A DNA stretch of 14,183 nucleotides, taken from positions 1-14,183 of the forward strand of contig JALOTR010000294.1 in assembly GCA_025457805.1 (NCBI GenBank). The letters run 5' to 3'. Made by a program: the position numbers and the translations under genes. Below are positions 1-12,880 of the stretch, piece after piece; position 1 is the first letter of the stretch; each line of letters begins with the position of its first letter. The notes beneath the pieces are model-generated. The model saw only the letters and a list, made by a program, of their open reading frames with translations, was not told the DNA's origin and did no database searches. This DNA comes from Akkermansiaceae bacterium. Its GTDB lineage: Bacteria; Verrucomicrobiota; Verrucomicrobiia; Verrucomicrobiales; Akkermansiaceae.

Positions 1-1036
1 GAGGAACATTCTCTGCATCGCCGAGGTAAGGTGCGGCGATGGGCGAGGCGGAAAGCATCACAGGTGGATTGGCACTGAGATTGGTGACCGGGTTATAACT
101 CGTGGCCATGCCTTGGAGCACCGCTTCGGTGAGCGCGGGATTCGGGCGCTGGAGGCGGAAATAATCCACTTCGGAAATCAGATCCGGCTGTCCGGGGCTC
201 GGTGCCGCGTAATTTGCATACCATGATGTCTGGACGCCGCCGTTGTGATAGGGCTCGGAGTTTTGCCAGTCCGTGTAAGCCGTCAGCCCGACCTGCAAGG
301 TGGAACCGAATGCAGGAAACGGATGGTCCGCATTCGGGTAGCGGTTTTCCACGATCCATGGTCCGGCCTCGGAGTATTTCCGCAGGCAGACGACCGTGTT
401 GCCCACGCGGATCAACTGCATCCATGTCTCATTGACGGCTTGGTTGATGCCGGTGGAACCGAAATAGAGGATCGAGTTGCTGTTGCGCGTGGTTTTGATT
501 TCGAATTGGCGGGTGCCCGGATTTCCTGCCGTGCCATAACTCAGGAAGATATAGTTTTCCGTATTCGGCACATAGTCACTGCCATAGGCGGCCGGGGGCC
601 AGACCTGATCGTTGCGATAGGGGCTGGGCCCGGCTTGGGTGATGTAAGGACGTGGCTCGTGGATGAAAATGCCGGTAAGTGAAAAAAGTCTATTAGGCGT
701 GGCTTGGGGGTTCGCGGGATTGTGGCGGCTCAAGACACGCAGCCGGGTGGTGGCGATGAAATCTCCGGAAACTTCCTTGAAAAACAAAACCCCGCGCAAA
801 TTCATGTACCAGCCCATGGCTTTCGGGACGATGCGGAAATGGCCGGGCGTGGTCGTGTTGATATCGGCGGATTCATCCGTGGAGACACCCCAGCCCTCGA
901 CCTCGTCGATGTCCTGCCAACGGGAGAAGGTGGCGGCATTGTTGAACTCATCGCCAAGCGGTTGGAGGGTGTCCGCCCGGGCTGGCACCTGCATGGTCGT
1001 GATGACTGTTAGAAAAAAGAGACCGATGGTTTTCAT
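1..1036 (-). CDS. Secreted concanavalin-like (DUF1349/LamG-type) protein, partial
   Basis: The reverse strand is open from an ATG at 1036 to the window edge, giving 345 codons; the C-terminus lies outside. Residues 1-21 form a signal peptide (MKTIGLFFLTVITTMQVPARA), so the product is exported. The body (about 25-295) is rich in Trp, Tyr, Gly and beta-type segments, with blocks such as FSRWQDI, GWYMNLRGVLFFKEVSGDF and SEVDYFRLQRP. These resemble the DUF1349/concanavalin-like beta-sandwich proteins common in Planctomycetes and Verrucomicrobia; this is family resemblance by eye only. The ATG overlaps the TGA of the upstream kinase gene as ATGA, which points to translational coupling and a shared role. 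The ligand is unknown; a carbohydrate or cell-surface polymer would fit the fold. Reading frame and signal peptide are clear, function is not. Confidence 0.8.
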   Translation of the reverse strand, partial: MKTIGLFFLTVITTMQVPARADTLQPLGDEFNNAATFSRWQDIDEVEGWGVSTDESADINTTTPGHFRIVPKAMGWYMNLRGVLFFKEVSGDFIATTRLRVLSRHNPANPQATPNRLFSLTGIFIHEPRPYITQAGPSPYRNDQVWPPAAYGSDYVPNTENYIFLSYGTAGNPGTRQFEIKTTRNSNSILYFGSTGINQAVNETWMQLIRVGNTVVCLRKYSEAGPWIVENRYPNADHPFPAFGSTLQVGLTAYTDWQNSEPYHNGGVQTSWYANYAAPSPGQPDLISEVDYFRLQRPNPALTEAVLQGMATSYNPVTNLSANPPVMLSASPIAAPYLGDAENVP

Positions 1037-2739
1037 GGTTGGTTTGAGGGAGTTTTGCGGTCCAGAACAATGCGAAAGCCGATGCCAACGCCACGGAGCC
1101 CGCGGTCATAACTGCGCACGGCCTGCGAGGGATGCGAAGGCGGGATTTCCAGCCAACTGGATCCAACGACCAGCCGGTGATCGACATTGATACCGGGAGA
1201 TGATGTCCACTCGGCCAGGTTGTCGGTGAGATCGACGGGTTGATCCGGAATGTTGTTAGATATAAGGGGTTGAATTGGACCGGGTTTGAGAACAAAAACC
1301 GCATTGAGATCGATGGCATCGGTTTCCCCGTTCGCCTGACCGATTGCGGCAAGCCACTCGGGGCGCGTGGGCAGCCGGTATGAATCCGTGGCGTCGATCC
1401 GGCCTGACTCCCGTTCACGGCGGGTGAGCCATGCGCAAAACGCCTCCGCATCCGCTTGGGAAACACATGCTACCGGATGATCCCCATTCTGGGCTGGCAA
1501 GCCGGGAGGGACCTGCCATGAAGCCTCTGTCGTCTGCCACTTGGCATCCTTGACCCAATGAACCTTGCCTGCGGAGACATGCCCGGTTTCCTCGACGAAT
1601 TTCGAGAAATCCGAACGCCGGGTCTCGATGGTGGAAAACCAGACACCTTGATTTCCCACCTCGCGGAACTTCATGCCGAGGCTGTTGGTGAAGGAATGGA
1701 AATCACTACCGGCCGGCGGCCAGAACATCCATGCGCTGAGGGCGACGGCTGCGATCACCGCCAAACATGCTGCGATCCATGTTTTTCGCGGCATGAAGCT
1801 TTCCACATGATGAAGGTCTTGCCTTACATCGGATGCCTGTTGATAGCGTTTATCCGGTTCCGCCTGCATGGCGCGAATCACCACCCGGTCCACATTCCGG
1901 CCGATGTCCACACGGCTGCTTGGTGGCTCGAAGGCTCCGCAGGGCAGGCTTCCGGTGAGCATTTCATAAAACATCACGCCCAGGCTGTAGAGATCCGCGC
2001 GATGATCGATGTCGGCGTCTCCACGGCGTTGTTCCGGCGCGACATATTCCGGCGTGCCGACCATCGCCCGCGTGAGCGTGGGAGACGTGCCGTTTGCATC
2101 GGAGTTTTTTTCATTCATCAACATCGCGAGGCCGAAGTCCGATACCTTTACTCGTCCATTCGCATCGATGAGAATGTTCGAGGGCTTGATATCACGGTGC
2201 ACAAATCCCTGCGCATGGGCGAATTCCAAAGCATCACATATCTGCCGGATGATATCGAGCGCTTGCGGCAATGGCAGTGGGCCTCTTTGGATCAACTGAT
2301 GGAGATCCGGGCCATCCACATGTTCCATCACGAAATAGAACAAAGCTCCGCGGGTTTCCCCGAAGTCATGGATCGCCACAATGTTCGGATGATTCAGCCG
2401 TGCAAGGGCCTTGGCTTCGCGTCGGAAACGTTCGGCCGCAGAGGGATCGCGACTCAACTCGGCAGGAAGGATTTTCAATGCCACTTGCCGGTCCAGAGAT
2501 ACCTGCCGCGCCTGATAGACGGCACCCATGCCACCGCGACCGAGCATCCGGATTTCCGTGAAGCCGGGGAACATGTCCTGGACTTCGGCATCATCCGGCG
2601 GCGACCACTCGACCGGTCCCTCCGCAGGCCACGATCCGCCGGGAGCACCCAGCACGCCTCGCAGCAGACCTGCGGGGTCGAGCCCGGAAAGTGCTCCGGC
2701 CGGTGGATCGGCTCCTTGCATGGTGGGAGGATGAATCAT
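1033..2739 (-). CDS. Membrane-anchored Ser/Thr protein kinase with SUMF1-like C-terminal domain
   Basis: 568 residues from the ATG at 2739; a TTG at 2757 would add six residues, and neither start has a clear Shine-Dalgarno. After a Pro/Gly-rich leader of about 55 residues comes a complete Hanks-type kinase: glycine loop GRGGMGAV (67-74), VALK lysine K89, helix-C E108, HRDIKPSN with catalytic D183, DFG 201-203, and VGTPEYVAPEQ before helix F. All catalytic residues are present, so it should be active on cytoplasmic Ser/Thr substrates. One transmembrane helix (about 321-340) follows. The remaining about 210 residues are outside the cytoplasm and resemble formylglycine-generating-enzyme/SUMF1 domains (NSLGMKF, YRLPTRPEWLAA, NLAEWTSS, GIGFRIV). 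The final third of this domain has no cysteine, so it is probably a binding or sensor domain rather than an oxidase. It follows the sigma gene by 108 bp on the same strand and overlaps the next gene by four bases. Confidence 0.93.
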   Translation of the reverse strand: MIHPPTMQGADPPAGALSGLDPAGLLRGVLGAPGGSWPAEGPVEWSPPDDAEVQDMFPGFTEIRMLGRGGMGAVYQARQVSLDRQVALKILPAELSRDPSAAERFRREAKALARLNHPNIVAIHDFGETRGALFYFVMEHVDGPDLHQLIQRGPLPLPQALDIIRQICDALEFAHAQGFVHRDIKPSNILIDANGRVKVSDFGLAMLMNEKNSDANGTSPTLTRAMVGTPEYVAPEQRRGDADIDHRADLYSLGVMFYEMLTGSLPCGAFEPPSSRVDIGRNVDRVVIRAMQAEPDKRYQQASDVRQDLHHVESFMPRKTWIAACLAVIAAVALSAWMFWPPAGSDFHSFTNSLGMKFREVGNQGVWFSTIETRRSDFSKFVEETGHVSAGKVHWVKDAKWQTTEASWQVPPGLPAQNGDHPVACVSQADAEAFCAWLTRRERESGRIDATDSYRLPTRPEWLAAIGQANGETDAIDLNAVFVLKPGPIQPLISNNIPDQPVDLTDNLAEWTSSPGINVDHRLVVGSSWLEIPPSHPSQAVRSYDRGLRGVGIGFRIVLDRKTPSNQP

Positions 2740-2847
2740 TTTTTCTGAAAATCGCAACGTCGCGTTGAGTCCGCCAGCGGTGCTTCAAGGGATTCTAAGG
2801 AATCGCGGCGATGGCATTACAGAAACCTGGAAAAAAATTCGCACGCC

Positions 2848-3633
2848 TCAAGAGAGCGCGGCCAGGAGCGCGAGCAATTCCTCCCTGACCGCAGCCGGAT
2901 CCTCATCGCCCAGAGTGGCGGCCACCTGATCCTGAAGAATCTGGCGGTATCTCAAACGCAGGCGATGCACGGCCACGCGGGTCGCATTCACCGTCCAGCC
3001 CAGCTTGGCAGCGGCTTCCTCATAGCTGAGGCCGCTGGCGGATTCCGACGCATCGAGGAAGCCCCTCAGGATTTCCATCTCCTTATCCCTTCCGCCATTG
3101 CGACGTTCTTTCTCCAAGTCGGCGAGCGCGCCGGATAGAAGCGTAAGCGCCCAGCGGCGATGATACAAAATCTCCGCCGTGGATGCCTGCGCGGGCTCCA
3201 ACTGGTAACGCTCCTCGGCGGCGATCGCGTCGAAGGAAATCGTCTCCGTTCGGCCACCGCGTCGCCACGCATCGCGTTTGTCCCGCTCGTCGCTGAGGAA
3301 GTTGGTGAAGGATGCGAGCAGGAAAGTCCTCAGCTTGCCCCGGTTTTCATCCGCGGCATGGAGTGTCTGGTTTCCGATGAGATGCGCGAAAAATCCCTGC
3401 GTCGCATCCTGCGCATCCTCCACGGCCAAACCTTGCCGACGGGCAAACGCATAAAGCGGCTCCCAATACGCTCGGCAAATCTGATCCAGCGCCCGATCCT
3501 CCCCTTCCCCGCCGCCACGTATCCGGGAAACCAGACTCCAACGAGTGTGCGGAAAGGCCCCCACCCCGGGTCGGGCGCCGGAGTCATCGTGGGAGAAATT
3601 TGCAGAATCCAGAGACACGTTCGTTTTTCCCAT
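2848..3633 (-). CDS. ECF-type RNA polymerase sigma factor
   Basis: 261 residues from the ATG at 3633. The frame stays open further upstream, but that part lies antisense to thiH and has no domain character. Region 2 spans about 48-125 (YWEPLYAFARR, then DAQDATQGFFAHL at 73-85 and RTFLLASFTNFLSDERDK). Region 4 spans about 155-233, with the helix-turn-helix YEEAAAKLGWTVNATRVAVHRLR. FPHTRWSLVSRIR at 27-39 and the long linker ending in LYHRRWALTLL are typical of ECF-like factors found beside protein kinases in Planctomycetes and Verrucomicrobia. It directs RNA polymerase to a dedicated promoter set. No anti-sigma gene is adjacent; the downstream kinase takes that position, so control by phosphorylation is a reasonable inference. 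Longer than a minimal ECF factor (about 180-200 residues) because of the N-terminal segment, the linker and a short acidic, Leu-rich tail. Confidence 0.92.
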   Translation of the reverse strand: MGKTNVSLDSANFSHDDSGARPGVGAFPHTRWSLVSRIRGGGEGEDRALDQICRAYWEPLYAFARRQGLAVEDAQDATQGFFAHLIGNQTLHAADENRGKLRTFLLASFTNFLSDERDKRDAWRRGGRTETISFDAIAAEERYQLEPAQASTAEILYHRRWALTLLSGALADLEKERRNGGRDKEMEILRGFLDASESASGLSYEEAAAKLGWTVNATRVAVHRLRLRYRQILQDQVAATLGDEDPAAVREELLALLAALS

Positions 3634-3639
3634 CCTCCT
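3634..3639 (-). promoter_or_regulatory. Shine-Dalgarno AGGAGG abutting the sigma factor ATG
   Basis: A perfect AGGAGG on the minus strand touches the chosen ATG with no spacer, which is closer than the usual 5-9 bases. The next in-frame start-like codon, a GTG five codons downstream, would have a 15-base spacer, which is too long. The ATG is still the best choice, but the match may be chance or may indicate weak initiation. Confidence 0.35.
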
Positions 3640-3694
3640 ACCCACCCCGCAGGATGGCGGCAAGCCCTCAAGTCTCAGACTACAAGCCTGACTT

Positions 3695-3700
3695 TTTATA
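3695..3700 (-). promoter_or_regulatory. Possible -10 box (TATAAA) for the sigma-kinase operon
   Basis: TATAAA on the minus strand lies about 62 bases ahead of the sigma start, within the only AT-rich stretch of the 154-bp divergent spacer. No convincing -35 hexamer sits 16-18 bases upstream. The operon may instead be read from a promoter recognised by its own ECF factor. Weak call made from composition and position only. Confidence 0.2.
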
Positions 3701-3787
3701 CAGAAATCAACTTGCGCGCGGCAGGGTGGCAAGGGGGCTCGAATCGGCTTTGACGTGGGGGGATGGACGGGGCATGGTCCGCGCGCC

Positions 3788-4732
3788 ATGGGTTTTGCCG
3801 AGGTATTTCCAGAATTGTTGAAGCGCCCCACTCCGTTGATGCGGCGCTTCGAGCGCATGCTGGACAGCGGATCGGGAGGATCGGCCGGGGATCCGTTGGA
3901 GGCAATGGTTCGGGAGAGCCGCGCGGTGACGCGGCGGCATTTCGGGCGGACGATGCGTTTGTTCGCCCCGCTATATGTGTCCAACGAGTGCGTGAACAAT
4001 TGCAGCTACTGCGGATTTTCCCGCGACGCGGGGATCCTGCGGACGACACTCACGGTGGACCAAGTGGTCCGTGAGGCGCAGCATCTGCACGCGCAAGGTT
4101 TCCGCAACGTGCTGTTGGTGGCCGGCGAGCACCCGAAGTTTGTTTCCGAGGGCTATCTGCAGGATTGCCTGGATGCGCTCAAACCTTTCATCCCCACCCT
4201 CGCCATCGAGGTGGGACCGATGGAGGACGAGCAATATGCCGAAATCGTCGCCCACGGCGCGGAGGGACTGGTGGTGTATCAGGAAACCTACGACCGCGCG
4301 GTTTACCAGACGCTCCACACGGCGGGGCCGAAGAAAAATTTCGATTGGCGGCTCGATTGCCCGGAGCGGGCCTATGCGGGTGGCTTCCGGCGGATCGGGA
4401 TTGGCGCCTTGTTCGGGCTGGCCGATTGGCGGAGCGAGGCGCTGGCCCTCTGCGCCCATCTGGAATACCTGCAGAAACATGCATGGAAGGCACAATTGAC
4501 CGTGGCCTTCCCCCGCATGCGTCCTTATGCAGGAAACTACGAATATCAGCCGGATCCCTCGCTTTTCCTGCCGGACCGCGAACTGCTGCGTCTGATTGCC
4601 GTGTTCCGTTTGTTGTTTCCACAAGTGGGCATCGTCGTCTCCACCCGCGAACCCGCCCCGCTGCGGGACGCCCTCGCGACGCTCGGCGTGACCCACATGT
4701 CCGCCGGCGCAAAAACCGAACCCGGCGGATAA
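3788..4732 (+). CDS. thiH: 2-iminoacetate synthase ThiH, truncated by a frameshift near its 3' end
   Basis: ThiH cleaves tyrosine by radical-SAM chemistry to dehydroglycine (2-iminoacetate) and p-cresol, supplying the glycine-derived part of the thiamine thiazole in many anaerobic or facultative bacteria. The ATG at 3788 is preferred; a GTG at 3755 would add 11 residues. The radical-SAM cluster motif CVNNCSYC (Cys68, Cys72, Cys75) follows LFAPLYVSNE, as in known ThiH. VYQETYDRAVYQTLH, DWRLDCPERA, IGIGALFGLADWR and FPRMRPYAG are further ThiH hallmarks. The frame ends at MSAGAKTEPGG followed by TAA, where family members continue with a Tyr and about 45 more residues. That missing tail is encoded just downstream in another frame. 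No thiS, thiG, thiF or thiC is next to it, and no TPP riboswitch is visible upstream. Confidence 0.93.
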   Translation: MGFAEVFPELLKRPTPLMRRFERMLDSGSGGSAGDPLEAMVRESRAVTRRHFGRTMRLFAPLYVSNECVNNCSYCGFSRDAGILRTTLTVDQVVREAQHLHAQGFRNVLLVAGEHPKFVSEGYLQDCLDALKPFIPTLAIEVGPMEDEQYAEIVAHGAEGLVVYQETYDRAVYQTLHTAGPKKNFDWRLDCPERAYAGGFRRIGIGALFGLADWRSEALALCAHLEYLQKHAWKAQLTVAFPRMRPYAGNYEYQPDPSLFLPDRELLRLIAVFRLLFPQVGIVVSTREPAPLRDALATLGVTHMSAGAKTEPGG

Positions 4733-4997: not shown

Positions 4998-7900
4998 ATG
5001 TTGATGGTGTCGCTGCCGCCAGTGAGTGAATTGCAGGATCTGATAGATTCCGGAAGGGTGCTGGATGCCTGGGAGTTGAGTCGGAAGACAGATGTTCCGT
5101 TGGAGCATTGGACAAAAGGTGAGGCGCTAGGGACCGCCGCGAAATTGACTCAATACCTGGGCTCTTCCCGGAAGGGCCGGGCCATGCGATGGTTGAACTG
5201 GCGGCATGATCGAAAGAATCCCAGATGGTTCTACAATGCGCTCTTCAGTCGCGCAGACTTTACTCCTGGCTACAATCTGTTGGTTGAAATTGAGAATATG
5301 CTATCTGCAAATCCGCAGATGGAGTCCGAGCCCAAGGCGGACCTGCTTGCTTTCTCCGCGAAGATCCATGCAGGATATCGGGACTTTTCCAATGCCTTCG
5401 ATCACATCGCCAGAGCACTGGACCTCCAACCGGAAGATTCCTGGTTACGGGCGCAACATTCGGCGGTTCTGGAAGCGGCGGATCGTTATGACGAAGCGCT
5501 CACTGCCGCACGCGAAGCCATCCGACTGAATCCTTTCTATCACATCGCGGTGATCCAGTGCGCGGACATCCTTGTGCACCTTGGCCAGGACGATGAAGCC
5601 ATCCGCATTCTTTCCGAAGCAGACCGTGCCACCCAACACGCGGCCTTTCCCATGCGCCTGCAGGTCCTTCACAGCGAGCGGGAAGAGCACAAAGAGGGAT
5701 TGGAATGCATGGACCGGATTGAAACGCGTTCCCCGCTGATGGAAGCGCGATTGAAATCATGGATCGCTTTCAGGCGTGCGGACTTCCACTTCCGCGCGGG
5801 CAACATGGAAGAATGTCTAACCTGTTGTGACAGTGATGATGCATATCATTTGAAACGCCTCGCCGAGAGCCTGAGGAAACCCGGAGCACTGACGAAACGC
5901 AGGGTGCGCCTTGACGTGCCATTTGTGAGACAACACCGGATGACATGCGCGCCCGCGACCTTGGCCGCTCTTGCATCATTCTGGAATAAACCTCACGAGC
6001 ATCTTTCGATCGCAGATGCCATCTGTCATGAAGGCACACCCTGGCACAAGGAGCGGAAGTGGGCGGAGCAACATGGATTTGTGGCGCGGGAGTTCCGCCT
6101 TGATTCCGAGGCGTTGGCTTCACTGATCGACCGTGGGATTCCGTTCACGCTCACCACCGAAGCGACAACAAGCGCCCACTTGCAGGCGTGCATTGGTTAT
6201 GATGATCGGACAGGCCATGTCATCCTGCGCGATCCGACGGAAAGGCACTTCGGTGAGGTGCGGATGGATGAGTTGATGGAAAACCATCCGATTGGCGGGC
6301 CACGGGCGATGACCTTGGTGCCACAAGAAGAGGTGGAACGTCTCGACGGTCTCCTACTGCCGGATGAAGCGGCCTATGAGAGTTTCCACCATCTTCTGAT
6401 GGCGATGGACGGGCACGATCGATGGGAGATCGAAGCTGCTGCAAGCACTCTGCGGGCGGTAGCGCCAGACCACCCGCTTGCTTTTCTAGGCACGGCGATG
6501 GCGGCCTCGTGGAATGACGACAAGCCCCGCCAGCTTGCGGCGTTGGAACAAATCCTGAATCATGCACCCCGGCATTCACAGAGTATCTTGAGGAAGGCGG
6601 CGGTTTTGCGCAATCTCGGCCGCTGGCAGGAACACCGCGAACTGCTGGAAGGGGAGGTCCAACACAAGGGCGTGGATCCGGTGTTTTTCTCGGAACTGGG
6701 AGAACTTCTCATCGGCGATGCCAGAATGCTTCCAATAGCTGAGATGCATCTCAGAAAAGCATTGAAGCTCAATCGCTACGAGGCACGTTGTTTTGAGAGT
6801 TATGCCAGACTCAAGTCAAAGCAACAGAAGCATCCCGAAGCGATGCGTTTGCGGAGGATCGCATCATGCCTCGCTCCGGAATTCGAGCCCTATGCAATTG
6901 CCTATCTGGAGTCATGCCGCGCCGCAGGACTTCCTGCGGTGGGAATCGCCTTTCTCACAGAAAGAGTGGATCGCTTGGGAAGCAAATCCAGCGGACCTTG
7001 GTTGACCCTTGCATCCTCCTTGCAGGATTTCCGCAGATCCCAGGAGGCTGCGGACCTCTTGCAACGGGCAGTGGCTGCGCGTCCGGACGACGGGACGCTG
7101 AAATTGCGCGGAGGATCGATGATGGTGGGCTGGGGTGAGTCCTTCCGAAAGGAGGGATTGCAATGGATGGAATCCGCGAGAGGCACCGTACAGGAGACAA
7201 ATTGGCTGCTCGAAATGGCAGTCACATACGCCTTTTTGGGAAATCGGGAAATGGCCATCCGTTGCTGGCAGGATCTTGTGCGCATTCAACCATGGTCGAT
7301 TGATGCCTGGCGCGGCTTGGCACGTCTGACAGCGGAAAAAGGAGGGCATGAGGCTGCCATCTCCCTGCTGGATGCCGCCACACGCCAGCATCCGATGCTC
7401 ATTCCTTTGTGGTGTCTGAAAGCAGAGTGGCAGTCCAATACCAAACAGGGGCCGCTTCAAACGTTGAACCACATCCTGGAAGTGGATCCCCATCAACTCT
7501 GGGCACGCAGGGAACGGGCGATTTGCCTGGCTTCATCCGGAGATATCATGGCGGCGGAAAAGGATGCCCGCGAAGCGCTCAAGACAGACCCTTGGTGTGC
7601 GGAATCCCATGGCGTCCTGGGTTCGGTTCTCTGGAAGGGCCAATCCAAGCCGGAAGCCCTCGAATGCATGCGTTCCGCCCTGCGACTGAGTGTGGATTAC
7701 ACCTTCGCCGCACAGCAACTCATCTCCATGTGTGCGGACCGTGATGCGGAGATCGAAGCCATCGGTTTCATCGAATCAGAAATGCGGAAGCAGGTCTCGG
7801 ACGGCACGATCGTGCCGGTCTATCAGAATCTCGCATGGGGTTATCTGGATCCGGCGGAATTGCTGGCGCAACTCAAGGGCTTCTGCACGGAACGTCCGGA

Positions 7901-9245
7901 TTTATGGCAGACATGGGCCGCGCTCGCCGAGCATGCCATGCGGATGAGACTGGATGACGAGGCGTTGGAAGCGGCGGATCAACTGACCCGCATGTTTCCC
8001 CTGCTTGCCCGTGCATGGCTGGTTCTTGGGAAAGTGCATCAAGCGGCAAGCCGGCATGAAGAGGAACTGCAAGCGACATCCCGGGCGATTGAATTGTCAC
8101 CGGGGTGGGATGAGGCTGTCCGCTCCCACGCCCTCGTGTTGGAGTTGCTCGGTCGCCCGGATGAGGCCTTGCAGGCATTGAAGCTGGCATGTGAACTGGA
8201 ACCTCTCAGCGGCCCCAATCATGGTTGCCATGCCGAGACACTGCGCCGCAATGGCATGAACCACGAAGCGCTTTCCAGCATTCGTGCCGCGCTGGAGTTA
8301 TGTCCTTTTTATGGATGGGGATGGCAACTTGCCGCGCAGTGGTCGGTGGAGGATGGATGCAAGGATCTGCTGGAGAAGGATCTTTTGGAAGGTGGCAGAA
8401 AGCATGGCCACAACCGCAGTTGGTGGCAGCTCGCCGCATCCACGTGGGAGATACTTGGAGAGAGGGAACAGGCACTGGACGCTGTGGATGCCGGCCTCGC
8501 CATGGATCCCACGGATGCCGACCTGCGGGATAACAAGGCATATCTCTTGTGGGCGTCCGGCAGGTTCGATGAAGCATTCGAGGCATGCGCGAAGGTGGAA
8601 GGCGAAGAGGTGGTGCCGGTATCCATCCGGGGACGCAAGGCCTGGCTTCTGATGCACTCGGGCCAACCCATCGAAGGGGTTGAGGAAATGAGGCAACTGC
8701 TGGAAGAGGAACCGGGTTACGAATGGGCCATGGCGGAACTGGCTGCCTGGCATGAAAACAGAGGCGAGTGGCAAGAACTCCGGTCACTTTCGGTCCGCTG
8801 GCTGCGCACCGCACCGAAGAACTCGCGGGTGCTGGGCTATCTGGGGATCGCGGAGATTTCGCTGGGGAACAAACAAGCGGCCAAGGAGGCCTTTGCCCGG
8901 GCGCGTTCAATTGATCCGGAATATATCTTTGCATACCGGCAGTTGTTTGACCTGCAACTTGAAGACAAGGAGTTCAAGGGGGCGGCCGCCACTTTGGCAC
9001 AAATGGAATATTATTCCCGCAGTCCATATATCATCGTTGACGGGATTCGCTTGGAACTCCGCAAAAAAGATCTTCATTCGGCATTCGACCGGGCTGCGCA
9101 GTTGCTTCACATGCCTTCGGCCACCAGTGATATCTTCGGCTGGGTGGCGGAACAGTTTCGCAAAGAAAATCACCACGATGAATGGAAGAGTGTGGATCGA
9201 CAAAGGTCCCCTCCTTGCTCCCGGAGCGCTGGTGGCCTATCTTGA
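4998..9245 (+). CDS. Giant TPR protein with embedded C39-like cysteine peptidase domain (main part)
   Basis: 1,415 residues before a TGA that follows a frameshift; the intact protein would be about 1,699. Residues 1-290 and about 455 onward are helical TPR-like repeats; many units show the A..A..L..P pattern, for example DIMAAEKDAREALKTDPW. Between them, about 303-442, lies a papain-like C39 peptidase domain. VPFVRQHRMTCAPATLAAL gives the oxyanion Gln312 and nucleophile Cys317, AHLQACIGYD gives His394, and ILRDPT gives Asp412. Glu/Gln, Cys, His and Asp occur in the order and spacing expected for an active C39-type enzyme. No signal peptide and no ABC transporter domain are present, unlike bacteriocin-exporting C39 proteins. 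TPR solenoids bind partner proteins, so a substrate- or complex-bound protease is a plausible inference. Substrate and pathway are unknown. It could also be a catalytically inert C39-like binding domain. Confidence 0.85.
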   Translation: MLMVSLPPVSELQDLIDSGRVLDAWELSRKTDVPLEHWTKGEALGTAAKLTQYLGSSRKGRAMRWLNWRHDRKNPRWFYNALFSRADFTPGYNLLVEIENMLSANPQMESEPKADLLAFSAKIHAGYRDFSNAFDHIARALDLQPEDSWLRAQHSAVLEAADRYDEALTAAREAIRLNPFYHIAVIQCADILVHLGQDDEAIRILSEADRATQHAAFPMRLQVLHSEREEHKEGLECMDRIETRSPLMEARLKSWIAFRRADFHFRAGNMEECLTCCDSDDAYHLKRLAESLRKPGALTKRRVRLDVPFVRQHRMTCAPATLAALASFWNKPHEHLSIADAICHEGTPWHKERKWAEQHGFVAREFRLDSEALASLIDRGIPFTLTTEATTSAHLQACIGYDDRTGHVILRDPTERHFGEVRMDELMENHPIGGPRAMTLVPQEEVERLDGLLLPDEAAYESFHHLLMAMDGHDRWEIEAAASTLRAVAPDHPLAFLGTAMAASWNDDKPRQLAALEQILNHAPRHSQSILRKAAVLRNLGRWQEHRELLEGEVQHKGVDPVFFSELGELLIGDARMLPIAEMHLRKALKLNRYEARCFESYARLKSKQQKHPEAMRLRRIASCLAPEFEPYAIAYLESCRAAGLPAVGIAFLTERVDRLGSKSSGPWLTLASSLQDFRRSQEAADLLQRAVAARPDDGTLKLRGGSMMVGWGESFRKEGLQWMESARGTVQETNWLLEMAVTYAFLGNREMAIRCWQDLVRIQPWSIDAWRGLARLTAEKGGHEAAISLLDAATRQHPMLIPLWCLKAEWQSNTKQGPLQTLNHILEVDPHQLWARRERAICLASSGDIMAAEKDAREALKTDPWCAESHGVLGSVLWKGQSKPEALECMRSALRLSVDYTFAAQQLISMCADRDAEIEAIGFIESEMRKQVSDGTIVPVYQNLAWGYLDPAELLAQLKGFCTERPDLWQTWAALAEHAMRMRLDDEALEAADQLTRMFPLLARAWLVLGKVHQAASRHEEELQATSRAIELSPGWDEAVRSHALVLELLGRPDEALQALKLACELEPLSGPNHGCHAETLRRNGMNHEALSSIRAALELCPFYGWGWQLAAQWSVEDGCKDLLEKDLLEGGRKHGHNRSWWQLAASTWEILGEREQALDAVDAGLAMDPTDADLRDNKAYLLWASGRFDEAFEACAKVEGEEVVPVSIRGRKAWLLMHSGQPIEGVEEMRQLLEEEPGYEWAMAELAAWHENRGEWQELRSLSVRWLRTAPKNSRVLGYLGIAEISLGNKQAAKEAFARARSIDPEYIFAYRQLFDLQLEDKEFKGAAATLAQMEYYSRSPYIIVDGIRLELRKKDLHSAFDRAAQLLHMPSATSDIFGWVAEQFRKENHHDEWKSVDRQRSPPCSRSAGGLS

Positions 9246-10098
9246 AACGCTTCCGCCGGATCGACTGCTCAAGGCCTTGCGCAAGCATGCCAAGAAGGAG
9301 AGCCCGGACAGTCAAGCACTCACCGGCGCGTGGATCCACGTGATCCAACGCTTCAAGAATGATCCTGCTGGGTTCAAGAAAACCTTGCGCAAGCTGGCAA
9401 AGGGCCACCCCCGGGAACTCCACTCCAATGGCCAGATCTGGAATGCGATGGGCGAGGCGCTGCTCACGGTTGGCGCGCCCGGAGAAGCGGCGAAATGGTT
9501 CACGGGTTGGCGGGACCGTCTTCCTGAGATGACAGCGGCTTCCTTCGTCAATCTTGCCGCCGTGGAGGACACTTGTCCGGGGAATGAGGAAGCGCATTGG
9601 ATCGAAGCCGGAAAGGCGCGCGAAGAAGGATTCCGCCGATTTCCCGATACGTCCCAATCGCAAGCCCTCAGGGCCGGTCATGCTTTCCATTTGGCCGCGG
9701 ATGGCCGCATTGATGAAGCCGGGAACTTGCTTGTGAATTTTGATGCCTCCCAGACCTGGGATTACTATCAGGCCATCGGAAACTGCACCCGGGCCATCGT
9801 GGCCGCAGCTCGCGGGGACGAGGACACGGCGCGAAAATCCATCGCCCCAGGACTCGGGCATTTGTGCCAATTCAACGATTTGGGAACGGTCCGCCTGAGA
9901 AAAAGGGCAGAGAGAGCTGTCGCCAGTCATCTGCCGTGGACGAAAGGAAAGGTCCGGAAGATGCGCAAGGAATGGAGGCTGCCGGAGCCCGTTCATGGGA
10001 ACTCCACCTGGCTCAACCCAAGTGGTGATATCCCGCTTTGGCCATTCGTGATCATCGCTTTCGTGGTGATTCGGACCTGCGCGTCCGCATTCTCCTGA
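9193..10098 (+). pseudogene. Displaced C-terminal part of the TPR-C39 protein, with hydrophobic tail
   Basis: The sequence continues the TPR protein in the next frame (codons TGG ATC GAC AAA GGT from 9193), reading WIDKGPLLAPGALVAYLETL and then helical repeat-like sequence for nearly 300 residues. Skipping a single base between about 9186 and 9207 joins the two parts. The first Met in this frame comes only in NAMGEALL near 9448, no ribosome site precedes it, and the repeat style matches the upstream part, so an independent gene is unlikely. The end is KMRKEWRLPEPVHGN, a short linker and then a hydrophobic segment WPFVIIAFVVIRTCASAFS. Basic residues before a C-terminal membrane helix suggest a tail anchor with the rest of the protein in the cytoplasm. 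Confidence 0.75.
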
Positions 10099-10139: not shown

Positions 10140-10171
10140 CCAGCGGGCGGTCTGTGTGGATGCTTTGCGGC

Positions 10172-11944
10172 ATGGGGAAGCAATCCTTGCGGACGGGCAT
10201 GATGATCAAACTGGCGGCGGCCGTGGCGAGCGGCTTGCTGGTGGCGGGGCTGTTTCCGCCCTTCCGGTTTTCCGCGATGGTGTGGGTGGCTTTGGTGCCG
10301 ATGATGGTGGCTCTGTGGTCGCTGGGTGGGAAACGCGCGGGATGGAAAGGCTTCGGGCTCGGCTGGCTGGCGGGCTCGGTGAGTTGCGCGATCCAATTCA
10401 ATTGGCTCTCGGTGGTTTCCCCGCTCGGGGCGGCGCTGATGCCGCTGTATCTGGGCCTCTATTGGGGGGCCTTCGGTGCCTTCGCGGCGACATGGGGAAA
10501 TCCGGGAAACTCCCCTGCCGGCGCATCCACCATCGGGGTGATTTCCAAGAGTTTGCGGATCGGGTTTTGTCATGCCGCGGTGTGGGCGGGGCTGGAGTTG
10601 CTGCGGGGCTGGTTGCTCACGGGCTTCGGCTGGAATGGCCTGGGCGTGGCATTTCATGAAACTCCCGCGATGGCGCAATCGGCCGATCTTTTGGGGGTGA
10701 CCGGTCTCTCGATGGTGCCGGTCTTTTTCCAAACCGTGCTGGTGCAGGCCGGGCGGCGCATGATGGAGGGCGCGCGCGACGGCCAACGCCGGACGCGCCT
10801 CGACTTCGCCACCGCCGCCGCCGTGGTGGGCGTGCTGGTTTGTTATGGCATCGTCCGGATCGCCACCGAGGGCCGCGGCGAGACCACGCGGCTCAAAGCT
10901 CTGCTGGTCCAACTCAACATCCCGCAGGAGGCGGCGCGGCAACTTTGGGACGGCGTGAAAGTCCACATGGCCTACGAGGACGAGACGCTCAAAGGCCTGG
11001 AGGGGCTCGCGGAAAAAGACGAGGCGCGGCTCAAGGAGGCGATGGAAAAAAGCGAGGAAGGCACGCTGGCCCTGAGTTGGCCGGACTGGGTGATGTGGCC
11101 GGAAACCGCGCTCACTGGCCGGATTTTCCGCCTCGACGATGGCAATTGGGGCACCCACCCGGAAAACCAGCGCACCATCGCCGAAGTCCGCGAGGCAGGA
11201 CCGTTCCAGCTCATCTACGGTATCAACGAACTCGAAGCCCAACCCACGCCGGACGGCCAGTTGGAGATGAAACCCCAAGGCCGGGCGTGGAATTCGATCG
11301 CCGTGATGACTCCCGAGAACCAACTCCAGACTTACCGGAAACGCCATCTCGTGATCTTCGGCGAGACCATCCCCTTTGTGGACAGCATCCCGTTTCCCCG
11401 GAAAATTTACGAACAGCAAGCAGGCGTGGAATACGGCGGATCGTTTTCGCCCGGCGAGTCGCTCGAACCCCTCCCGATCCCAACTGCGGGCGGAAAAGTG
11501 ATCGGCGCGATCCCGACCGTCTGCTTCGAAGACTCGGTTCCACGGCTCACGCGGAAATTCGTCCGCCCCGGCCCGCAGGTGATCATCAATGTGACCAACG
11601 ACGGCTGGTTCAAGGAGTCCGCTGCCGCCGCGCAGCATTTTGCGAATGCCCGATTCCGCGCCATCGAACTCCGCCGACCCATGCTCCGCTGCGCCAATAC
11701 CGGGGTCAGCGCCGCCGTGGACAGCACCGGTTCCACCGCCCATCCGGACACGGGTAAACCCCAGGTGCTGGTGGATGAAAATGGCAGCCACTTCACCCGA
11801 GGCTCGCTGCTGGTGGAGCTGGGGGTGCCGGAAAACCCATCTTTTTCCCTCTACGCCCTCATCGGCGACTGGGGGGTGATCGGGCTTTCCATGGTGGGAC
11901 TGGTGACCGGCTTCCGGACCCGCCGCCGGAGCGAAAACCACTGA
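10172..11944 (+). CDS. lnt: Apolipoprotein N-acyltransferase Lnt
   Basis: Lnt transfers the third acyl chain from a phospholipid to the N-terminal Cys of lipoproteins, the last step of lipoprotein maturation in the inner membrane of Gram-negative bacteria. 590 residues from the ATG at 10172; GTG 10154 and ATGs at 10160, 10199 and 10202 are possible alternatives. The N-terminal about 230 residues hold the hydrophobic helices, starting IKLAAAVASGLLVAGLFPPF. The C-terminal nitrilase-type domain carries the full triad: Glu311 in WPETALTG, Lys390 in YRKRHLVIFGE, and Cys451 in PTVCFEDS. NVTNDGWF, RAIELRRPMLR and NTGVSA are further Lnt hallmarks. A last hydrophobic helix (about 560-580) ends the protein. 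At 590 residues it is longer than E. coli Lnt (512), in part because of a charged insert at about 275-302, before WPE. It follows the TPR gene on the same strand; no lipoprotein-processing partner is nearby. Confidence 0.95.
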   Translation: MGKQSLRTGMMIKLAAAVASGLLVAGLFPPFRFSAMVWVALVPMMVALWSLGGKRAGWKGFGLGWLAGSVSCAIQFNWLSVVSPLGAALMPLYLGLYWGAFGAFAATWGNPGNSPAGASTIGVISKSLRIGFCHAAVWAGLELLRGWLLTGFGWNGLGVAFHETPAMAQSADLLGVTGLSMVPVFFQTVLVQAGRRMMEGARDGQRRTRLDFATAAAVVGVLVCYGIVRIATEGRGETTRLKALLVQLNIPQEAARQLWDGVKVHMAYEDETLKGLEGLAEKDEARLKEAMEKSEEGTLALSWPDWVMWPETALTGRIFRLDDGNWGTHPENQRTIAEVREAGPFQLIYGINELEAQPTPDGQLEMKPQGRAWNSIAVMTPENQLQTYRKRHLVIFGETIPFVDSIPFPRKIYEQQAGVEYGGSFSPGESLEPLPIPTAGGKVIGAIPTVCFEDSVPRLTRKFVRPGPQVIINVTNDGWFKESAAAAQHFANARFRAIELRRPMLRCANTGVSAAVDSTGSTAHPDTGKPQVLVDENGSHFTRGSLLVELGVPENPSFSLYALIGDWGVIGLSMVGLVTGFRTRRRSENH

Positions 11945-12190
11945 CAATCAATGAAATCAGCACCCGTTTTCCGGCTGAGTGCGGTATTCCGGAAGTGGAA
12001 ACTGGCCGGACGAACACGCGGATCCCAAGTTGCAAGACCCTAATTGTTAGGGAGAAATGCGGCTTTTTTTTCTTGTCGGAACCGCCCGATCTGCTTTCGT
12101 CCACGGGAACTCATTGACCCACCTCCGCAAAATCTGCGTGCCCCGGCACGGCAATCGCTTTGTGGAGCAGGTGCCACTTCCCTTTTCGCC
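11945..12190 (+). other. Intergenic region between lnt and the M15A peptidase gene
   Basis: 246 bp without a supported gene. It holds the CCCTAA/TTAGGG palindrome and a T8 run at 12064-12071, but the two are about 11 bases apart, which is too far for a classical terminator. The open frame running back from the peptidase gene to 12044 has no signal-peptide or domain character and begins inside the palindrome. Confidence 0.5.
12038..12052. repeat. Perfect palindrome CCCTAA-TTG-TTAGGG
   Basis: A 6-bp stem with a 3-base loop lies about 95 bases after the lnt stop and 139 bases before the next start. It could be a weak terminator hairpin, with T8 about 11 bases further on, or a protein-binding site. 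Confidence 0.4.
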
Positions 12191-12880
12191 ATGATCTCTT
12201 CCGATTCCGAGCAAACCCCAGAATCCGCCATCGACTCCCTGATCGACCGCCGCAGTGCCATGGGCACGCTGGGTCTTGCGGGCATGGGCATGCTGCTCAG
12301 CACCGATTTTTCCCTGGCCGCTCCCTCCAAAGCCGCGCCCAAGGTCACCGTCCCCACCTCATCCCGTCCGGCGGTCCAGCCCGTCCAGCGCCCGGCGATG
12401 GCCTTTGCTCCGGTGAATGAAATCCCGGACGAGTGGCGCACCCTCCACGGCCGCGCTGCCGCGGAATATCTCCGCTATCTCCAAGGACTCAATCTCCGCC
12501 GAGTTTCCCCCCACCAGGTGATCGCCACCCATGCCAAGAAAAAGGGCGATGTGTGGAACTCGATCCCGCCCAAAGCTTGGTGGAACCGCATGGGCTATGT
12601 GCTCCGCGTCGTGGAGCGTGTGGCCATGGAAATGAATGTGAACCAGGTTGAAGTCGTTTCCGCCTACCGCTCGCCAGCCTACAATGCGCGCTGCGCCGGT
12701 GCCCGCACCGGGTCCTGGCATCAGGCAAACGTCGCCGCAGATGTGAAATTTCCCGTCCGCGCCTCGCAGGTCACCGCCACCGCGCGCCAACTCCGCGACC
12801 TCGGCCTCTTCAAGGGTGGAGTGGGTGGTTACTGGAATTTCACCCACATCGACGCCCGCGGGCAGAATATCAATTGGTGA
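12191..12880 (+). CDS. Exported M15A/DUF882 (YcbK-like) zinc peptidase
   Basis: 229 residues from the ATG at 12191, chosen because it places the export signal at the N-terminus. Residues 1-43 look like a twin-arginine signal: an acidic/polar n-region, DRRSAMG with Arg20-Arg21, a hydrophobic stretch and SLAAPS as a likely cleavage region. Tat signals are common in this family. The C-terminal domain (about 120-229) matches peptidase M15A/DUF882: VEVVSAYRSPAYNARC, SWHQANVAADVKF and FKGGVGGYWNFTHID, ending in NINW. His177, Asp184 and His219 are the expected zinc ligands and Asp221 follows the last one. E. coli YcbK (MepK) has the same layout and cleaves peptidoglycan cross-links, so a role in murein turnover in the periplasm is likely. 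A Pro-rich linker (about 50-75) separates signal and domain. Zinc ligands are complete, so it should be active; exact bond specificity is not readable. Confidence 0.9.
   Translation: MISSDSEQTPESAIDSLIDRRSAMGTLGLAGMGMLLSTDFSLAAPSKAAPKVTVPTSSRPAVQPVQRPAMAFAPVNEIPDEWRTLHGRAAAEYLRYLQGLNLRRVSPHQVIATHAKKKGDVWNSIPPKAWWNRMGYVLRVVERVAMEMNVNQVEVVSAYRSPAYNARCAGARTGSWHQANVAADVKFPVRASQVTATARQLRDLGLFKGGVGGYWNFTHIDARGQNINW

Follow-up and report, generated by a model that had tools for sequence, protein, structure and literature searches.

The window analyzed here is contig JALOTR010000294.1 of the Akkermansiaceae bacterium assembly GCA_025457805.1 (Verrucomicrobiota), taken over its whole length of 14,183 nt. 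Its forward strand carries a gene, here called TPR-C39, for a protein of about 1,700 residues in which a C39-like, putative cysteine peptidase domain is set within a long array of tetratricopeptide repeats (TPRs). The gene occupies 4998..10098, and the codons for Gln312, Cys317, His394 and Asp412, read by eye, lie where a first-pass annotation of this DNA, made by a model from the letters alone, had placed them. The gene is split into two open reading frames (ORFs). Aligned with an intact relative of 1,703 aa (P0002), the first frame is 59% identical over 1,391 aa (P0002 residues 7–1397), and the second, at 9205–10095, is 55% identical over 294 aa (P0002 residues 1406–1699). Because the two frames jointly tile P0002, they belong to one gene and one protein with a single frame break near 9,190–9,205. 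The break may be real or may be an assembly error, the latter being possible because the source bin, which comprises 736 contigs, is only 59% complete. Unbroken copies are frequent; among the homologues listed (120 including the window's own, of 419 above threshold), 106 of the 119 others are longer than 1,550 aa. A second copy from the same genus (L104, about 5518–6713 of G025:C215) is broken, with stops in all three forward frames; its fragments match residues 8–128, 240–311 and 307–555 and are confined to the N-terminal 40%.

Table 1 Positions of the TPR-C39 gene, its parts and its neighbors in the window
Feature	Coordinates	Strand	Basis
Main ORF, 1,415 aa: N-terminal TPRs, C39-like domain, long C-terminal TPR array	4998..9245	+	ORF list, Pfam, 59% identity to P0002
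N-terminal helical TPR block, residues 9–293	5022..5876	+	AlphaFold model of residues 1–800, TPR families
C39-like (papain-fold) domain, residues 302–443	5901..6326	+	
Gln312, candidate oxyanion-hole residue	5931..5933	+	Conservation
Cys317, candidate nucleophile, start of first domain helix	5946..5948	+	Conservation
His394, candidate general base, in beta strand	6177..6179	+	Conservation
Asp412, candidate third triad residue	6231..6233	+	Conservation
C-terminal TPR solenoid, residues 457–1343; regular 34-residue repeats from about residue 970	6366..9026	+	Pfam, model to residue 800, 34-residue register
C-terminal continuation in second frame, 297 aa, hydrophobic tail at end	9205..10098	+	55% identity to P0002 residues 1406–1699
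Hydrophobic C-terminal tail, candidate tail anchor	10036..10095	+	Best 17-residue mean hydropathy 2.09
Ser/Thr kinase with FGE-sulfatase domain, upstream, beside sigma-factor-like gene	1036-3999	-	
Radical SAM protein, BATS domain (biotin/thiamin synthesis type), upstream	3755-4729	+	
Apolipoprotein N-acyltransferase, then M15 peptidase, downstream	10154-12880	+	

In the main ORF, Pfam detects TPR families along the length and Peptidase_C39_2 (PF13529) at residues 305–413, with an E-value of 1.1e-11 and 45.9 bits against a gathering cut-off of 24. The continuation frame has no Pfam match. Peptidase_C70 (AvrRpt2) matches the same stretch as Peptidase_C39_2 weakly, at 20.5 bits (cut-off 19) compared with 45.9 bits. 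Unlike AvrRpt2, the window protein is a giant TPR protein with a tail anchor, and nothing about it suggests an injected effector. An AlphaFold model of residues 1–800 folds the leading TPRs, the C39 domain and the following TPRs as one unit (pLDDT 94.1, pTM 0.90), the C39 domain and its flanks being predicted with high confidence (pLDDT 93–94). The predicted domain is papain-like in fold and brings Cys, His and Asp into register, in a placement that agrees with the one published for LahT. Its nearest solved folds include the double-glycine peptidases ComA, PCAT and LahT and the endoisopeptidase PeiR; of these, ComA, PCAT1 and LahT are active peptidases. The Pfam match, the fold matches and the model bear out the first-pass annotation, which had proposed a C39-like papain fold within the array and TPRs on both of its flanks.

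A scan of 84,980 species, each represented by one genome, returned 194 pattern matches, of which 129 encode relatives; this number is a lower bound from three peptide patterns. The four candidate active-site residues are identical in all 120 listed homologues, the window's own included. Among the 80 genome loci kept of the 129 found, Gln312 is present in 78 (the other two have a gap), Cys317 in 79 (the other has a gap) and His394 in all 80; the set includes near-copies, with identical domains in L073 and L083 and a single species behind L095 and L097. Conservation peaks in the C39 segment, where the column mean is 0.70 versus 0.34–0.52 in the other segments (42 sequences). The Cys/His/Asp set, whose loss from homologues would have spoken against the annotation, is retained, with Gln, Cys and His invariant and Asp nearly so in the sequences examined. 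The colinearity of the family members and their invariant Cys/His pair go far beyond what chance would produce, and the TPR-C39 family is real and more than a singleton. No conserved double glycine that could serve for self-cleavage stood out in the lists of conserved columns, although no dedicated test was made.

The insertion point of the domain and the length of the protein are constant across the family. Lengths were counted at 67 loci (13 of the 80 were dropped, 5 without a called main ORF and 8 with an end off the contig): 62 proteins have 1,639–1,806 aa, three are shorter (888, 966 and 1,152) and two are longer (1,981 and 2,115). Counted from the predicted start, which is a first-ATG/GTG/TTG guess, the C39 domain begins after a median of 307 residues, and a median of 1,221 residues separates its end from the stop. 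The relatives are spread over Verrucomicrobiota, Planctomycetota, Acidobacteriota, Pseudomonadota and other phyla; most have ~1,640–1,810 aa, and the position of the domain is shared. Long open copies are found in the strains Haloferula luteola (1,702 aa), Luteolibacter pohnpeiensis (1,700 aa) and Chthoniobacter flavus (1,765 aa as called). We also looked for shorter versions of the family with a 541-aa probe, scoring the 7,997 candidates that shared most words. This search yielded eight proteins, six of them on contigs shorter than 6.3 kb and two (P0156 and P0158) on contigs of 9.9 and 14.3 kb. Close C39 cousins of ~80–260 aa gave 33 matches, of which 25 have either no listed contig or one no longer than 3.1 kb and eight lie on contigs longer than 16 kb. 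We rejected these short cousins as a separate form; five of the six that were read (P0121–P0124 and P0127) carry, by eye, flanking sequence of the TPR-C39 family and look like fragments or split genes.

Within this range the gene is sparse. At E 1e-15, 8 of 288 sampled genomes of the window's phylum match, its own included (completeness of at least 90% requested). An order-level survey gave a raw tally of 33 of 59 genomes, many of them TPR cross-hits; strong matches (E 1e-60 or better) come from the genome itself, 2 of 36 other genomes of the genus and 6 of 22 others of the order. On a tree of 76 proteins (FastTree, with long end branches and low support at 22 of 73 inner branches), the proteins group by phylum with some mixing, but far better than under shuffling: phylum labels need 11 changes, compared with 38.1 when shuffled and a possible minimum of six. 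From this pattern TPR-C39 looks like an accessory gene of old standing that has come down mostly by inheritance, has been lost many times and may have been transferred on a few occasions. Searches for a mobile origin found no match in viral contigs (C39 piece), plasmids (E 1e-20) or phages (residues 1–447).

The termini bear on where the protein resides. We scored as hydrophobic any 17-residue window with a mean hydropathy of at least 1.5. None of the 106 full-length homologues has such a window in its first 60 residues, in agreement with the proposed lack of a signal peptide; 85 of the 106 have one in the last 60 residues, versus 23 of 5,300 random internal 60-mers. By hydropathy alone, then, the protein has the form of a tail-anchored protein, with no N-terminal signal and one C-terminal hydrophobic segment. 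Counted by phylum over loci whose ORF ends inside the locus (four of these ORFs, in L079, L081, L099 and L102, are cut short), the tail occurs in 20 of 29 Verrucomicrobiota, 0 of 24 Planctomycetota, 1 of 14 Pseudomonadota, 1 of 5 Acidobacteriota, the one Cyanobacteriota, neither of two Myxococcota and neither the one Lentisphaerota nor the one Latescibacterota. With short ORFs left out, the tallies in the tree rows are 20/28, 0/23, 1/14, 1/4, 1/1, 0/2 and 0/1, and the tail label changes nine times on the tree. Two Verrucomicrobiota proteins that are tail-less by the rule (L032 and L037) have a strongly hydrophobic stretch further in. Because the tail is mostly limited to Verrucomicrobiota, the anchor, as predicted from these sequences, is mainly a trait of that phylum and is neither family-defining nor core. 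The membrane tether of the first-pass annotation would thus be a lineage feature, applying to the window and to most Verrucomicrobiota members but not to the family at large. In 33 of the 85 tailed homologues, and in the window's tail, a basic residue or His followed by Cys (at most one residue between) stands at or near the end of the hydrophobic segment, a loose pattern.

These data suggest that the C39 domain is probably an active cysteine peptidase, judging from its conservation and predicted fold. We consider the balance about even on the fuller reading that TPR-C39 is a stand-alone, single-gene cysteine endopeptidase of ~1,700 residues, with the C39-type domain inserted ~300 residues into a TPR superhelix of conserved length. 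Such a protein would stay in the cytoplasm and, in Verrucomicrobiota, would be anchored at the inner face of a membrane. Its target would be a particular protein or peptide, in which Cys317, His394 and Asp412 would hydrolyze a peptide bond. The solenoid would position or gate the active site and would bind a regulator or substrate whose gene lies elsewhere in the genome. Going by the closest folds, the cut might fall after Gly. A protease is likewise coupled to a helical or TPR solenoid in separase and BepA, which have other protease folds and a solenoid on one side only. We tentatively extend the endopeptidase reading, as a possibility that we hold to be doubtful, to an undescribed bacterial protease class whose C39 catalytic core forms part of the wall of a very large TPR superhelix of constant size. 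The solenoid would itself be both regulator and substrate gate, so that the protein would resemble separase in a bacterial version. Proteins of this class would work alone, in scattered lineages of several phyla, on a cellular target that is conserved, and Verrucomicrobiota would have gained membrane docking later. If true, a length-conserved family of stand-alone solenoid proteases in several phyla would represent a new mode of regulating intracellular proteolysis in bacteria, and its single-gene organization makes it easy to test.

Several observations weigh against the endopeptidase reading. The model also matches a papain-fold enzyme that is not a peptidase, the phytochelatin synthase-like Alr0975, and fold alone shows no function. 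The position of Asp412 holds Asp in 77 of the 80 loci and Glu in the other three. The gene is dispensable and patchily distributed, and another copy in the genus is broken. Lastly, at what we take to be the classical groove positions of the TPRs, mean conservation is 0.433 versus 0.448 at other non-structural positions (one-sided p = 0.86), a comparison confined to the regular 34-residue repeats of residues 970–1340. As a measure of sequence constraint, this result argues against a single conserved peptide ligand lying along those residues. The earlier suggestion that the solenoid recruits substrates is left unsupported, because the groove positions in this region are not more conserved. The Glu-bearing loci (L071, L044 and L091) come from different phyla.

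In a rival reading the domain is an enzyme other than an endopeptidase, namely a C39-fold acyl or peptidyl transferase, a deamidase or an enzyme that processes small thiols, and the TPRs would hold a protein substrate or complex. We think this somewhat unlikely, since peptidases are closest in fold both by Z-score and by Foldseek E-value and C39 peptidases carry this Gln/Cys/His/Asp set. Alternatively, the protein could act as a TPR scaffold that keeps its C39-like domain mainly for binding or structure and catalyzes little or nothing, as with HlyB, whose C39-like domain is inactive. Domains of the HlyB type (7sgr, 8dck and 3zua) do match the model, and the tolerance of Glu at Asp412 fits such a role. 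A structural domain would be expected to lose its nucleophile now and then, however, and Cys317 and His394 are kept in all sequences that have any residue at those positions; we therefore regard a mere binding module as unlikely.

A role in defense, which the first-pass annotation had raised, was weighed against the gene's surroundings and known systems. In the form considered here, TPR-C39 would be a stand-alone conflict protein in which the solenoid detects an invader and sets the protease free, in the manner of TPR-CHAT within Craspase. In favor are its size, its single-gene form and its rare, patchy occurrence (8 of 288 genomes in the phylum, own included; strong matches in 2 of 36 others in the genus), and TPRs with a protease are an established defense pairing (PMC10028731; PMC8195603). 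One such case is TPR-CHAT (Csx29) of Craspase, in which, as here, TPR repeats are fused to a cysteine protease in bacteria (PMC10028731). TPR-CHAT has a CHAT/caspase fold, whereas the window protein has a C39 papain fold inserted within the array, and Pfam gives the window's main ORFs no CHAT or CRISPR family. The other is a predicted conflict system of TPRs, GreA/B-C and PIN with exchangeable effectors, some of papain fold, in which the effector takes the place of an N-terminal adaptor and has GreA/B-C and PIN domains after it (PMC8195603); Pfam found neither GreA/B-C nor PIN here, nor any NTPase family. PADLOC, run on the main protein and three relatives, gave weak TPR cross-hits or nothing, hence no relevant match. 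The gene has no match in the plasmid, phage and viral collections searched, and its taxonomic clustering on the tree (11 versus 38.1 changes) exceeds what we would expect of a rapidly transferred defense gene. Neighboring genes are varied and often housekeeping. Defense is thus quite improbable, and the annotation's proposal found no support.

Neighbors were compared over 85 loci, which include at least two duplicates (L004 = L025 and L006 = L049). Neighbor ORFs were taken by a rough longest-ORF rule with a 90-aa minimum, so that small genes were missed, and the main gene was missed or misplaced in L046, L053, L074, L079 and L088. Clustering of these ORFs of at least 90 aa revealed no conserved partner, small peptide genes not having been searched. 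The widest non-self cluster covers seven loci at positions −3 to +8 and includes the window's kinase; clusters at a fixed position are limited to single clades, for instance four to five Planctomycetota or four Pseudomonas-type loci. None of the window's neighbors recurs beside relatives in a way that would suggest a partner, and neighbor strand is near random (same strand in 36 of 63 upstream and 33 of 70 downstream). Pfam searches of 20 of the 52 close same-strand neighbors found MutL, Obg, TatD, RraA, a tRNA synthetase, a ketoacyl synthase and a methyltransferase, a diverse and often housekeeping set in which only a 3-keto-disaccharide hydrolase occurs twice. These 20 are mostly unrelated to defense, though one is a type VI secretion system (T6SS) Tle1-like lipase (L026).

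The same comparison bears on leader-peptide processing by a stand-alone double-glycine peptidase, with the peptide encoded elsewhere and its leader bound by the TPRs. C39 peptidases are known mainly as cutters of leader peptides on exporters, and the closest folds include the leader peptidases PCAT, ComA and LahT. Yet no conserved neighbor, transporter included, was found among the ORFs compared, and the groove positions show no special conservation, which makes this role highly improbable. The C39 domains of ComA, PCAT1 and LahT lie at the N terminus of an ABC transporter and share about 17–21% identity with the window's domain over the aligned fold. Here, the domain lies within a TPR solenoid, and no ABC transmembrane or nucleotide-binding domain is among the Pfam matches of either frame, as the annotation had stated.

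The nearest named C39 family at NCBI is NF033920 (PA2778 family cysteine peptidase). Its 255-position profile aligns best with residues 306–552 (profile 4–249), from the C39 domain into the following TPRs, and scores 49.4 bits for the window, 54.7 for P0004, 55.2 for P0033 and 31.8 for P0102, all below the cut-off of 150; in P0004 and P0102 the best stretch lies on TPRs only. The window protein, at ~1,700 aa and with TPRs on either side of the domain, is much longer than the profile. With NF033920 below its cut-off and nothing relevant from PADLOC, the protein matches no named system, as first proposed. In the literature searched, which lacked most subscription journals, we found no description of a TPR-C39-TPR architecture or family; some members are already named at NCBI as 'C39 family peptidase' or 'tetratricopeptide repeat protein'.

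The window's kinase gives many PADLOC PD-T4-6 matches, which look like generic kinase cross-hits. The sigma-factor-like protein beside it has a region 4 match below the Pfam cut-off, and relatives of these two genes adjoin each other in L048 and L092. We considered a fixed insertion site at lnt and rejected it; lnt occurs in 36 of 39 relatives (own included), yet the TPR-C39 gene does not adjoin it in six that were opened. The pair of apolipoprotein N-acyltransferase and M15 peptidase genes is kept in two of six relatives opened (L120 and L121). As called, the start of the radical SAM gene overlaps the divergent sigma-like ORF.
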